A DNA stretch of 64,000 nucleotides, from contig JAEHGX010000006.1 of the NCBI GenBank assembly GCA_019248265.1, positions 1 through 64,000 of the forward strand. The letters are read 5' to 3'. The DNA comes from Candidatus Falkowbacteria bacterium S5_I03 (GTDB lineage: Bacteria > Patescibacteriota > Patescibacteriia > Patescibacteriales > UBA12465). The stretch's first letter is position 1, and each line of letters begins with the position of its first letter. Of the stretch, positions 18,261-61,254 are shown one piece after another. A program made the translations under genes and the position numbers. The notes under the pieces were generated by a model, which made no database searches, was not told the origin of the DNA, and saw only the letters and a program-made list of their open reading frames with translations.

Positions 18261-19343
18261 TTAAATATCAAGTTCATCCAGCAGATTTTTTTGTTTTCGG
18301 CTAAGGTTGGAAGGTATTTTTACTATTATTTTAACAAAGTGGTCGCCAACGCCGCGACTATGCAATTTTATAATTCCCTTTTCTTTTAGCTTGAAAATAG
18401 TGCCTGATTGCGTTCCGGCAGGAATTTTTAGCTTTAGGGCTCCATTTACAGTTTCAACATCGATCTTATCACCAACAATTGCCTGTTTAATACTAATAAC
18501 CTCCTCTGTTTTAATATCATAGCCATCACGAATAAATTTAGGATGAGCAGAAATTTTAACACGCAGGTATAAATCTCCAGCCGGTGCTCCTTTCTGGCCC
18601 GCCTCCCCTTGGCCACTTAAACGAATCGACTCGCCATTATTGATGCCGGCCGGAATTCTAACTTTTATTTTAACTTGCTCGTGATGAACTCCGGAACCGC
18701 CGCATTGCGTACATTTTTGACTATAAGTTTTACCCTCGCCTTCACAATGGGGACAGGCTGATTGAGTCTGGATATTACCCAGAATCGTTCTTTGCAGACG
18801 GGTGATTTTACCAGTCCCGCGGCAATTAGTACAAGTTTCAACTTTTGCTCCCGGTTCATAGCCTTGGCCGTGGCAATGATTACAAATGATATTTTTAGAA
18901 AATTGGATTTCTTTCTCTAATCCGAAGACGGCCTCTTTAAAATCCAAGTTTAAATTTAATTCTAAATCGCGCCCGCGAGCTTGGCGTTTAGTACTGCGCG
19001 TATTAGCGCCGCCAAAGCCAAAAATATCGCCGAAGCCGCCGAACATTTCGCTTAAATCTTCAAAATCCATATTGAAGCCGCCGCCATTTTGGAAACCGGA
19101 AAAGCCGCCATAATTGGCGCCGCCGGCTTGGCCGTTTTGAAAAGCAGAACCAAATTGATCGTATTGCTTTCTTTTTTCTGGGTTGCCCAATACTTGATAG
19201 GCTTCATTATATTCTTTAAATTTTTCCGCATCCCCACCTTTGTCCGGATGATGCTCATGCGCTTTCTTGCGAAAAGCGGTTTTGATTTCATCGGGACTGG
19301 CAGTTTTGGAGACGCCTAATATATCGTAATAATCTTTAGACAT
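18261..19343 (-). CDS. dnaJ: chaperone DnaJ (Hsp40)
   Basis: DnaJ stimulates the DnaK ATPase and delivers unfolded substrates. The 360-residue protein has the J domain with HPD at residues 32-34, a Gly/Phe-rich linker (about 70-110), four zinc-binding CxxCxGxG repeats ('CNHCHGQG', 'CTNCRGTG', 'CPHCEGEG', 'CTQCGGSG', about 150-217), and C-terminal substrate domains. All hallmark residues are intact. It is the last gene of the heat-shock operon, separated from dnaK by a hairpin-bearing 61-bp spacer. Confidence 0.97.
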
Positions 19344-19404: not shown

Positions 19405-21342
19405 TTATTTATTCTCTTCTACTTCGCCCTCAACCACATTATCGTCTTTTTTTTCGCTGTCGCTCTTCGCGTCGCCGGCAGGATTAGACCCTCCAGCCTC
19501 AGCTTGTGTGCCGGCGGCATCCGCTCCCGGAGCACCCGCTCCTGGTTGTTGATACATGGCAGCGCCAATCTTTTGGGCAACCGTATTCAGTTCTTCCATT
19601 TTCTTTTTCATGTCCTCTAAATTGCCGCTCTCCTTGGCCTTCTTAAGGGCTTCAACTTTTTCTTCCAGTTCTTTTTTATCTTCAGCCTTCATCTTGTCGC
19701 CAGATTCTTTCAACATTTTTTCGGTCGTGAAGACGACAACTTCTGCCTGATTTTTTATTTCTACTTCTTCTTTTTTCTTCTTATCTTCCTCAGCGTGCAA
19801 TTCAGCTTCCTGCTTCATCTTTTCAATTTCTTCTTTAGATAAACCGGAAGAAGCCGTAATCGTAATTTTTTGTTGTTTGTTGGTTGCCTTATCAGTTGCG
19901 GAGACATTTAAAATACCGTTAGCATCTAAATCAAACTTAACTTCTACTTGCGGGATGCCACGTGGTGCTGAAGGAATACCGTCTAAAATAAAGCGTCCTA
20001 AAGTTTTATTATCGGCAGCCATCGGTCTTTCGCCTTGGACAATATGAATTTCCACACTAGTTTGACCATCAGCCGCGGTCGAAAATACTTGGGATTTAGA
20101 AGTTGGGATAGTAGTATTTTTTTCAATGAGCGGCGTGGCAATACTGCCTAAAGTTTCAATACCTAAAGTAAGCGGGGTGACGTCTAGTAATAAAACATCC
20201 TTAACATCGCCTTGCAAAACTCCGGCTTGAACAGCGGCACCCATAGCCACTACTTCATCCGGATTAACGCTTAAGTTCGGCTCTTTGCCAAAAAATTCTT
20301 TAACTTTTTGTTGAACTAAAGGCATGCGAGTCATACCGCCCACCATTAAAATCTCATTAATATCGCCGATTTGGAAACCGGAATCATGAATCGCCTGACG
20401 GCAAGGTTCAATTGTCTTCTCAATTAAATCAAGAACTAAGGCCTCTAATTTAGAGCGAGACATTTTCATTACTAAATGTTTTGGTCCGTTAGCATCGGTA
20501 GTAATAAAAGGCTGATTAATTTCCGTTTCTTGAGAAGTCGATAATTCAATCTTGGCTTTTTCGGCTGCCTCTTTAATTCTTTGCAGAGCGAGCGCATCTT
20601 TAGACAAGTCAATTCCTTGGTCACGCTTAAATTCTTCAATAATCCAATTAATAATTCTTTGGTCAAAATCTTCACCGCCTAAATGAGTATCGCCGTTGGT
20701 TGATTTAACTTCAACCGTATCGGCGGAAATATCCAGTACGGAAACATCAAAAGTTCCGCCGCCTAAATCATAGACGGCAATCTTTTGGCCGTTCTTCTTA
20801 TCAAAACCATAAGCCAAGGCGGCCGCGGTCGGTTCATTAATAATACGCTTAACATCTAGACCGGCGATTTGGCCGGCATCTTTAGTTGCTTGGCGCTGAG
20901 AATCGTTAAAATAAGCCGGAACGGTAATAATCGCTTCGGTAATTTTTTCGCCCAACTTTGCTTCAGCATCGGCTTTTAATTTAGACAAAACCATCGCTGA
21001 AATTTCTTGCGGAGTATAATCTTTGTCGCCCATGGTGACCTTAACACCTTCACCGGCTTGAACAATTTTATAAGGCGCATTTTTTAAATCGCGTTGGACT
21101 TCTTCTTCGTCAAAATGACGGCCGATTAAACGTTTAACCGCATAAACCGTATTTTCGGGATTAATAACCGCCTGTCTTTTAGCGGCAGCGCCGACGATTC
21201 TTTCTCCATTTTTAGAAATGGCGACGACCGACGGGGTTGTCCGATTGCCTTCAATGTTTTCAATGATTTTAGGAACGCCGCCCTCCATGATTGCCATGGC
21301 GGAGTTGGTCGTCCCTAAGTCAATTCCTAAAATTTTTGCCAT
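19405..21342 (-). CDS. dnaK: chaperone DnaK (Hsp70)
   Basis: DnaK is the ATP-dependent folding chaperone. The 645-residue protein has the actin-like ATPase domain with '[13 protein letters not shown]' at its start, '[16 protein letters not shown]' and '[13 protein letters not shown]', the linker '[15 protein letters not shown]', then substrate-binding and helical lid domains with a Gly/Ala-rich tail and acidic end. Length and motifs are standard. It lies in the HrcA-controlled operon between hsp20 and dnaJ. Confidence 0.98.
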
Positions 21343-21421: not shown

Positions 21422-21850
21422 TTATTTTTTTGTTTGAATCTTAATAGATTTAGGTTTGACTTCGGCCGCCTTAGGAATATTAATCTTTAAGATGCCACCT
21501 TCGTTAACAGCGCTAGCTTGATCGCCATCAACTTTGGTCGGCAAAGGAATGGAGCGATAAAAAGAGCCGCGGCGAATCTCTTGGCGGTAATAATTCTTAT
21601 CTTCCACTTCGCTCTTTTTTTCACTTTCACCTTTAATGCAGAGAACATTATTCTCAATAGAGATATCAACCTTATCCGGATCAATTCCGGCCAGTTGCGT
21701 CTCCACAACGATATTATCCTTGTCCTCGTACATATCAACCGCCGGCGTAAAGCCGAATTGATTGCCGCGAACAGTCGGCAACATGGATTCAAAAGTCTTA
21801 TCCATGTCGTCAAATTCCGAAAAGAATGGAGTCCATTTTATTAAAGACAT
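21422..21850 (-). CDS. Hsp20/alpha-crystallin small heat-shock protein
   Basis: Small heat-shock proteins hold unfolding proteins for refolding by DnaK. The 142-residue protein has the alpha-crystallin domain (about residues 36-135) with 'PAVDMYEDKDNIVVE' at its start and 'VNEGGILKINIP' near the end, corresponding to the conserved A-x-x-x-n-G-v-L motif. The C-terminal 'PKSIKIQTK' provides the I-x-I anchor for oligomer assembly. It lies within the CIRCE-controlled operon between grpE and dnaK, an arrangement that pairs holdase and foldase. Confidence 0.93.
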   Translation of the reverse strand: MSLIKWTPFFSEFDDMDKTFESMLPTVRGNQFGFTPAVDMYEDKDNIVVETQLAGIDPDKVDISIENNVLCIKGESEKKSEVEDKNYYRQEIRRGSFYRSIPLPTKVDGDQASAVNEGGILKINIPKAAEVKPKSIKIQTKK

Positions 21851-21921: not shown

Positions 21922-22545
21922 TTATTTAACAATTACTTTAGCCGGCCTGATAACCCGGCCATTCAACATATAACCCGGCATAACTTCTTTAGCGACTGTT
22001 TCACCCGTACCATCCATAGCTTCCATGGTATTATGATCAAATTTTTCACCCACGGTCTTTATTTCCATCACCCCCTTAGACTCTAAAACATCCTTAAACT
22101 GCTTCAAAACATGGCGAACGCCGACTGCCCAAGGATTATCATTATCCTCTTCTTTTAAACCTAGCAAAGAAAGCTTGAGGTGGTCATAAACAGGTAAAAT
22201 ATCTTGTAAAAAATCTTGAAGCGCATATTTTACAAAGTCAGACTTATCTTTAGCACTTTGCTTTAAAAGATTGTGATAATCGGCTAAAGCCCGCTTATAT
22301 TGATGTTCTAGGGATTCAGGAGCTTCTTCTGAGTCCGATAAGAATTCAAAACGCGCTTTTTTAATGCCGTCGACTTCAACTTCTTCCAAAAACATTTTTT
22401 TGGAACGTACCCAAATTTTGGATTCATTTTTGATGTCCTGATAAACAACCTGCTCTTCTTTAGTTTCTGAATTAAGCGCTTCGTTTAAAATCCGATATTC
22501 GCCACCTTTATAATGGCGATAGATTCCTTTTTTTAACTCTTCCAT
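21922..22545 (-). CDS. grpE: GrpE nucleotide exchange factor fused to an N-terminal DUF1653 domain
   Basis: The 207-residue protein starts at ATG 22545, 4 bp after the hrcA stop; a start 18 codons upstream would overlap hrcA. Residues 4 to about 66 are a DUF1653 domain ('GIYRHYKGGEYRIL', 'SETKEEQVVYQ', 'WVRSKKMFLEEVEVDG'). Residues 75-207 are GrpE: a coiled-coil helix ('EHQYKRALADYHNLL') and the C-terminal beta domain ('GEKFDHNTMEAMDGTG', 'GYMLNGRVIRPAKVIV'), which releases ADP from DnaK. DUF1653 has no known role and normally occurs as a stand-alone small protein. The junction reads straight through with no stop. Confidence 0.92.
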   Translation of the reverse strand: MEELKKGIYRHYKGGEYRILNEALNSETKEEQVVYQDIKNESKIWVRSKKMFLEEVEVDGIKKARFEFLSDSEEAPESLEHQYKRALADYHNLLKQSAKDKSDFVKYALQDFLQDILPVYDHLKLSLLGLKEEDNDNPWAVGVRHVLKQFKDVLESKGVMEIKTVGEKFDHNTMEAMDGTGETVAKEVMPGYMLNGRVIRPAKVIVK

Positions 22546-22549
22546 AGTT

Positions 22550-23242
22550 TTATTCAAATTTCTTTTTAATAAATTCCGCGAGCGCCAAATTATGGCCATA
22601 GTCCATGCGCATCGGTCCTAAAATTCCAAATAAGCCGTGAGCGCCTTCGTGTCGGTATTTAACCAAGATAGCGCTTAAGAAATTGCCAAAGGGATTTTTA
22701 GAGCCGATCAGGGTCTGACTGCCTTCCGGCAATTCCTCAAAAATATCATCAATTATTTCTTCCATGCGATCGATAATTCCCGAAACATCGCAAACGGCAT
22801 CAACTTGTTTAAACTCCGGTTGGGAAAATAAATTAGAGAGGCCGGTATAATATAAATCATTTTTATTAAATGCCCAAAAAACTGCGCCGCTCGCTAATTC
22901 TGAAATCGCTTTAGCGGTTTGTCTCAAAGCCAGGCCCTCTTTGTTAAAAATATTTTCTAAATTTTTTTCATCCGCTTCTTTAAGGCTACGCTTTTTTTTA
23001 ACATCCTTTATCGTTTCCAGAAACAACTCATAAGCAATTTCGGTCGGCACGCGTCCGGCAGAAGTATGCGGCTGATAAATATAACCCTCTTCTTCAAGCT
23101 CCATCATTTCATTGCGGACGGTGGCTGGCGAAATATCAAGCTTATATTTTTCCACTAAAACGCCGGAAGACACCGGTTGCGCCGTCTTCACATATTCTTT
23201 AATTATGGTTTCTAAAATAAATTGTTTGCGCTGAGAAATCAT
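22550..23242 (-). CDS. hrcA: heat-inducible transcription repressor HrcA, short form
   Basis: HrcA represses heat-shock genes by binding CIRCE; GroEL or related chaperone state usually controls it. The start is ATG 23242 ('MISQRKQFILETII'); an upstream start at 23281 lies inside CIRCE and is rejected. The 230-residue protein keeps the winged-helix part ('TAQPVSSGVLVEKY', 'SPATVRNEMMELEEEGYI', 'HTSAGRVPTE') and the terminal 'GPMRMDYGHNLALAEFI'. The usual length is about 340, so the middle (GAF-like and inserted dimerisation region) is shortened. It is the first gene of the operon it probably controls. Confidence 0.93.
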   Translation of the reverse strand: MISQRKQFILETIIKEYVKTAQPVSSGVLVEKYKLDISPATVRNEMMELEEEGYIYQPHTSAGRVPTEIAYELFLETIKDVKKKRSLKEADEKNLENIFNKEGLALRQTAKAISELASGAVFWAFNKNDLYYTGLSNLFSQPEFKQVDAVCDVSGIIDRMEEIIDDIFEELPEGSQTLIGSKNPFGNFLSAILVKYRHEGAHGLFGILGPMRMDYGHNLALAEFIKKKFE

Positions 23243-23261
23243 ATATTTTATTGCTACCGCT

Positions 23262-23290
23262 ATTATAAACAAAATTAGCACTCAAGTCAA
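23262..23290 (-). promoter_or_regulatory. sigma70-type promoter of the heat-shock operon
   Basis: Minus-strand TTGACT (23285-23290) and TATAAT (23262-23267) are separated by 17 bp. The -35 box lies in the spacer of the CIRCE element and the downstream CIRCE arm fills the -35/-10 spacer, so HrcA binding would block RNA polymerase. Confidence 0.88.
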
Positions 23291-60855: not shown

Positions 60856-61254
60856 TCATTTTAAAAACCCAAAATACTTTAAGGCCGGTTTGATGTTGGG
60901 AGCTAAGTTCTCTTTGCCCAAATCATTTATATCTAGCCAGTCCCATTCTCTAATATCATCACCGGGGACTAGTTCGCCGACTCTTTTTGCTAGAAAATGA
61001 GCCAGAATAACACTAACAAGCTTCCCTTCAATTTCTTTTTCAATGTTTAAAAGATATGGGTTGTCATCCAATATCTCAATCTCAATACCCATTTCTTCTT
61101 TGGCTTCCCGTTTAGCGGCCGCCTTCAAATTAATTTCATCTTCTTCAACCCGGCCGCCGCAAAATTTCCAAAAATTATCGTCCCCGTGTTTATTTAATAG
61201 AACTTTATTGTTTTCGACGATAACCGGGCCAGAAGCAATAATTATTTTTGACAT
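60856..61254 (-). CDS. NUDIX hydrolase
   Basis: The 132-residue protein has a complete Nudix box: Gly-x5-Glu-x7-Arg-Glu-x-x-Glu-Glu-x-Gly, seen as 'GGRVEEDEINLK' followed by 'AAAKREAKEEMGIE'. It hydrolyses a nucleoside diphosphate linked to another group; the substrate (for example oxidised nucleotide or ADP-ribose) is not evident. The strand 'VIVENNKVLLNKHGDDNFWKF' precedes the box, as in the MutT-like group. Confidence 0.9.
   Translation of the reverse strand: MSKIIIASGPVIVENNKVLLNKHGDDNFWKFCGGRVEEDEINLKAAAKREAKEEMGIEIEILDDNPYLLNIEKEIEGKLVSVILAHFLAKRVGELVPGDDIREWDWLDINDLGKENLAPNIKPALKYFGFLK

Follow-up and report, generated by a model that had tools for sequence, protein, structure and literature searches.

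DUF1653 and NUDIX domains ahead of GrpE in a lineage of Patescibacteria

GrpE is usually portrayed as a dimer that has disordered tails and, to our knowledge, no accessory domain. In the window (the whole stretch of 64,000 nucleotides that was analysed), the grpE gene behind hrcA appears to encode a DUF1653 domain ahead of GrpE. The questions raised by this locus are whether the fusion is real, how widely it occurs, and what such a domain might do on GrpE. A 2025 review of GrpE-like factors contains no mention of fusion, fused, Nudix or domain architecture. In the open-access literature searched, nothing relevant was found on NUDIX-GrpE or on DUF1653 function, and DUF1653 was mentioned by one paper, in passing.

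The fused protein and its operon

The DUF1653-GrpE fusion is encoded by a single unbroken frame of 207 aa on the minus strand (22545..21922). Its ATG start lies 4 nt past the hrcA stop codon, in agreement with the operon spacing that had been claimed for it. Both domains were recognised by Pfam far above the curated cut-offs. The DUF1653 match (PF07866) spans residues 7-67 with 84.9 bits against a cut-off of 23.5 (E=4.8e-24; profile positions 1-61 of 62), and the GrpE match (PF01025) spans residues 69-206 with 119.2 bits against 25.8 (E=1.9e-34; positions 20-163 of 165). No stop codon occurs between the two domains in this frame. The original prediction of a full DUF1653 domain and a full GrpE domain in one frame was thus borne out.

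The DUF1653 domain was modelled as a small all-beta barrel (pLDDT 96). Its fold matches that of the solved member 3be3 from Bordetella bronchiseptica (E=1.9e-4, TM 0.87 on the query), with which it also shares the core GxYxHYKG...Y...R...RF. A chance domain match was ruled out by the Pfam E-values together with this fold match. The only other significant fold matches were viral DUF1653-like proteins; SH3/KOW-like barrels (eIF5A, Hex-1) were weak neighbours with non-significant E-values. The model of the whole protein, a monomer with a pLDDT of 94.7, consists of the barrel (1-70), the linker (71-75), a helix (76-106), and the GrpE bundle and wing, so that the long helix, the helix bundle, and the beta wing of GrpE are all present. 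The frame, the domain matches, and the model show the same two-domain architecture, and the fusion is confirmed as real.

The genes are arranged in the order hrcA, grpE, hsp20, dnaK, and dnaJ, all on the minus strand, with a CIRCE operator located upstream of hrcA (Table 1). As judged from the sequence of this operator, the operon is CIRCE-controlled. The window genome (assembly 89% complete) contains one DUF1653 match and one GrpE match; the fusion is therefore the sole GrpE found in it. Nucleotide exchange on DnaK by this protein would be predicted from the conserved contact segments and the sole-copy status. The proposed link of the fusion to the DnaK cycle is upheld by the operon, the sole-copy status, the conserved GrpE core, and the retention of the fusion across the lineage. 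A standalone NUDIX gene is also present in the window (60877-61224, minus strand), distant from grpE.

Table 1. Features of the grpE region in the window
Feature	Coordinates	Strand	Basis
grpE coding sequence, DUF1653-GrpE fusion, 207 aa + stop	21922..22545	-	frame reading and Pfam
DUF1653 domain, residues 7-67	22345..22527	-	Pfam, structure model, 3be3 match
Short linker, residues 71-75	22321..22335	-	least confident part of structure model
GrpE domain, residues 69-206	21928..22341	-	Pfam; helices 76-106, 110-128, 138-156 and beta wing in model
Residues 84-96, counterpart of E. coli GrpE L63-R75	22258..22296	-	alignment offset 81<->60 to 1dkg; segment from PMC12915176
hrcA frame, heat-shock repressor	22550..23281	-	Pfam; likely true start ATG at 23242 (by inspection)
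CIRCE operator, inverted repeat TTAGCACTC-N9-GAGTGCTAA	23275..23301	+	perfect (0 mismatches; chance expectation, none)
hsp20, encoding a small heat-shock protein, located between grpE and dnaK	21422..21850	-	Pfam
dnaK, complete	19405..21342	-	Pfam; NTTIPT loop kept (motif read directly), GrpE contact known in homologues
dnaJ	18261..19343	-	Pfam

The GrpE domain, the DnaK-contact segments, and the heat-shock operon are common to the window protein and canonical GrpE (E. coli, 1dkg; Geobacillus, 4ani). In the fused forms of this lineage, by contrast, the DUF1653 barrel, a NUDIX domain, or both take the place of the N-terminal disordered tail and of a portion of the long helix. The window protein is aligned with E. 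coli GrpE at an offset of 21. In E. coli GrpE, the segment L63-R75 touches the substrate-binding domain of DnaK (PMC12915176). Its counterpart is residues 84-96, which places the end of the barrel about 14 residues ahead of the contact segment. In the DUF1653-GrpE proteins the module is found 5-9 residues ahead of the GrpE core, at the site of the disordered tail in other GrpEs. The tail of E. coli GrpE binds the DnaK substrate site via I17-I18-M19 (PMC12915176), and no tail motif was found ahead of the barrel or in the linker of the fused forms (0/29). Of the 48 plain GrpEs in the order, 8 have a hydrophobic pair or triplet flanked by acidic residues, and the tail motif is missing from the other 40; the function of the tail may therefore have gone earlier. 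In one fusion (L082), a tandem repeat encoding NPPTPLCQGGENSE is inserted into the linker between DUF1653 and GrpE.

Distribution and history of the modules

The closest relatives of the fusion were Patescibacteria and Candidatus Falkowbacteria records, and 111 draft genomes of the order (Falkowbacteria-like Patescibacteria, which are tiny and uncultured) were surveyed for the same architecture. GrpE was found in 106 of these genomes and DUF1653 in 45, with one match apiece. DUF1653 lies ahead of GrpE in 30 of the 45 and elsewhere in 15, two of which are partial matches at contig ends. Two more fusions in another family of the class bring the fused copies to 32. The survey called for by the original prediction therefore recovered the fusion repeatedly, and an assembly or sequencing artefact that removed a stop is excluded by this recurrence. 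No further DUF1653-GrpE was found outside the class among the DUF1653 matches of 380 phylum genomes, the long frames of which were read. Fused and standalone DUF1653 occur together in none of the 30 order genomes that carry the fusion (Fisher p=0.006); like the simple counts given here, this value takes no account of kinship.

In addition, an N-terminal extension of about 140 residues, which is a NUDIX domain, is present on many of the order's GrpEs that lack DUF1653 (for example L096, L022, L061, L067, and L093). Among the 101 order GrpEs long enough for architecture analysis, 27 are DUF1653-GrpE, 23 are NUDIX-GrpE, three are DUF1653-NUDIX-GrpE (L020, L031, L049), and 48 are plain, so that an accessory module is present on 53. 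About half of the GrpEs lack the module, and it is therefore dispensable on evolutionary time. Beyond the order, NUDIX-GrpE was found in three other genomes of the class (L224, L225, L226) and in a separate Patescibacteria record (L150:2008-2900, UBA1370). These NUDIX-GrpE and DUF1653-NUDIX-GrpE forms alter the meaning of the fusion seen in the single window.

The Nudix box, Gx5Ex7REUxEExGU, is intact in 23/30 of the fused NUDIX domains under a strict pattern. Five members, from two genera (g2, g6), have degenerate catalytic residues, and a sixth is partly degenerate; the box ahead of GrpE is destroyed in L071, L094, L073, L103, and L107. Pfam gave no NUDIX match for the two degenerate members scanned, so that the NUDIX identity of the five rests on a local profile only. 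By sequence, Thermus Ndx1 is the closest solved relative of these domains. The forms with NUDIX would be predicted to hydrolyse a nucleoside diphosphate linked to X; a particular NUDIX substrate was not assignable from sequence.

Trees of the three domains bear on how these architectures arose. A branch with support of 93/93 separates the fused DUF1653 domains from the standalone ones. The branch is non-starred, and the tree behind it is a smaller one of 67 columns from which the longest rows were left out, so that the value depends on this choice of rows. A larger first DUF1653 tree including phages was unresolved. In a quick tree of NUDIX domains, 24/30 fused copies fall in one clade (support 98), the five degenerate copies lie apart on a long branch, and the fused domain of L150 groups with standalone NUDIX (support 99). 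The NUDIX-GrpE of L150 looks like a separate origin, as far as this tree indicates. The architectures are interleaved throughout the GrpE tree, down to the level of single genera: one DUF1653 form occurs with two NUDIX forms in one genus (f11 g30) and with three in another (f4 g16), and the plain G094 is sister to the DUF1653-bearing G097 (support 99). Given this interleaving and the single clade, one old double fusion followed by losses is simpler than repeated gains. An ancestral DUF1653-NUDIX-GrpE, parts of which would then have been lost differentially, is thus well supported by the trees; recombination between grpE genes might also account for the interleaving.

Company and conserved residues of DUF1653

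The original prediction described DUF1653 as normally a stand-alone protein. This is mostly right, but in this phylum fusions of the domain to NUDIX, HD, deoxyribosyltransferase-like, and other enzyme domains occur as well. Fusions to NUDIX were found in four proteins, to an HD domain (YfbR-like) in one, and to a deoxyribosyltransferase-like domain in two, the scanned one of which has E=3e-6, just under the Pfam cut-off. A DinB-DUF1653 fusion occurs in one Burkholderiales record (L174:1865-2731). In the Patescibacteria DUF1653-NUDIX proteins (L233, L234, L236, L321), DUF1653 precedes NUDIX as it does in DUF1653-NUDIX-GrpE. They differ from the latter in having no GrpE, and the three of their NUDIX domains that were placed in the tree lie outside the GrpE-fused clade.

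The neighbours of standalone DUF1653 are of a similar kind. A same-strand NUDIX gene is found near 11/32 standalone DUF1653 loci of the order and class, within the fetched 3 kb, against 3/90 control GrpE loci; at DUF1653 loci of other bacterial groups none was found (0/20). Pfam on 83 neighbour frames identified NUDIX (15), deoxyribosyltransferase (5), ASCH (3), HIT (2), HAD (2), and Ham1 (1). Phage DUF1653 copies have NT5C, dUTPase, Thy1, and adenylosuccinate synthetase genes nearby. By guilt by association, DUF1653 is linked to nucleotide handling. Two side observations should be mentioned: one standalone DUF1653 (L035; G019 contig C1, ~273900-276800) lies within a row of NUDIX genes, and DUF1653 is found in phages and giant viruses (L201-L222), with nucleotide-metabolism genes near some phage copies.

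Fused DUF1653 domains keep the core residues G7, Y9, H11, Y12, K13, Y17, Y35, W45, R47, R65, and F66. Unlike 3be3, the window domain is fused to GrpE, and the histidine of the HSET motif is gone in 32/32 fused copies. This residue, His25, is present in 80/85 standalone copies, and N25 takes its place in the window protein. HSET lies outside the Pfam definition; membership in DUF1653 therefore stands, and the same function is not to be assumed. As the fused copies form one clade, the loss of His25 may be one ancestral change, and because of it the fused domain may no longer bind the ligand of standalone DUF1653. The dN/dS values of fused DUF1653 are 0.06-0.33 in nine usable pairs (simple Nei-Gojobori, with dS often near saturation). 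The domain is under purifying selection, which is looser, with faster change, than in the GrpE part in most pairs.

Possible roles of the module

The reading we tentatively prefer, at somewhat less than even chances, is that a module derived from nucleotide handling tunes the DnaK cycle via GrpE and descends from an ancestral DUF1653-NUDIX-GrpE. The GrpE of the cell bears a folded N-terminal accessory module, for which we infer the following mechanism. An ancestral nucleotide-handling module would have joined the N-terminal end of GrpE, beside the substrate-binding domain of DnaK, and, as its associations suggest, might make the DnaK cycle responsive to a nucleotide-type stress ligand. The NUDIX part would bind or hydrolyse this ligand. 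The DUF1653 barrel would either bind it or persist as a regulatory cap beside the substrate-binding domain, and might take over the client-release job of the missing pseudo-substrate tail. Some lineages would have kept the barrel alone. In favour of this reading are the nucleotide-linked partners and neighbours of DUF1653, the mostly intact Nudix box, the mutual exclusion of fused and standalone DUF1653, the purifying selection on the fused domain, and the missing tail motif. The loss of His25, the degenerate NUDIX domains, the many plain GrpEs, most of which also lack the tail motif, and the faster evolution of the DUF1653 part count against it. A sensing role of the fused DUF1653, as originally proposed, is possible. 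A more specific form of this reading, which we regard as unlikely, makes GrpE a nucleotide-responsive co-chaperone: DUF1653-NUDIX would sense or destroy a stress or damaged nucleotide and thereby set DnaK client release, and the window form would have kept only DUF1653. Azido-Ap4A labels DnaK in E. coli (PMC10148737), which makes Ap4A a possible ligand; nothing here singles Ap4A out.

The PilZ-DnaK chaperones CsdK1 and CsdK2 of Myxococcus couple a PilZ domain, a c-di-GMP-binding kind, to Hsp70 (PMC10313047). The likeness lies in a nucleotide-messenger-binding kind of domain on a member of the Hsp70 machine that is active in heat stress. However, their domain is fused to DnaK itself, whereas the present module is on GrpE and its ligand is hypothetical.

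A structural cap that needs no ligand is rather unlikely in our estimate, but several features agree with it. DUF1653 and NUDIX would then be interchangeable folded ends that stabilise a shortened coiled coil, or that block the way to the substrate-binding domain of DnaK or shape access to it; nucleotide chemistry would be irrelevant. Different domains indeed occupy one position, the NUDIX domain persists in lineages where it is degenerate, and the fused DUF1653 retains its fold residues without His25 and other positions conserved in standalone copies. Furthermore, helix 76-106 is short, the helix of E. coli GrpE (1dkg) being longer. Against a cap stands the intact Nudix box of most fused NUDIX domains, and the nucleotide-linked neighbourhoods shared by DUF1653 and NUDIX would not be predicted by it; the apparent separate origin of NUDIX-GrpE elsewhere also speaks against it.

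It seems still less probable that the fusion is near-neutral in a compact genome, with domains that ride on grpE for CIRCE co-expression, work apart from DnaK, and are readily lost. The frequent change of architecture within genera and the faster evolution of fused DUF1653 would suit this, as would the mutual exclusion of fused and standalone DUF1653 in genomes, which looks as if both did the same job. However, the absence of His25 from every fused copy speaks against a shared job. Several families have, moreover, retained the fused domain under purifying selection, and NUDIX-GrpE seems to have arisen a second time. The original prediction also included recruitment of protein substrates, in which DUF1653 would capture client proteins for DnaK. 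The barrel does adjoin the contact segment for the substrate-binding domain of DnaK, but no partner, neighbour, or fold match suggests peptide binding; partners and neighbours indicate nucleotides rather than polypeptides. This part is unsupported, and we consider it very improbable.

Tuning of the DnaK cycle by a module of nucleotide-handling descent, our preferred reading, would couple protein folding to the state of the nucleotide pool in this lineage. For DUF1653, the association with nucleotide handling offers a clue to function. In addition, with DUF1653, NUDIX, or both on about half of its GrpEs, the lineage provides a natural set of variants for probing the role of the GrpE N-terminus.
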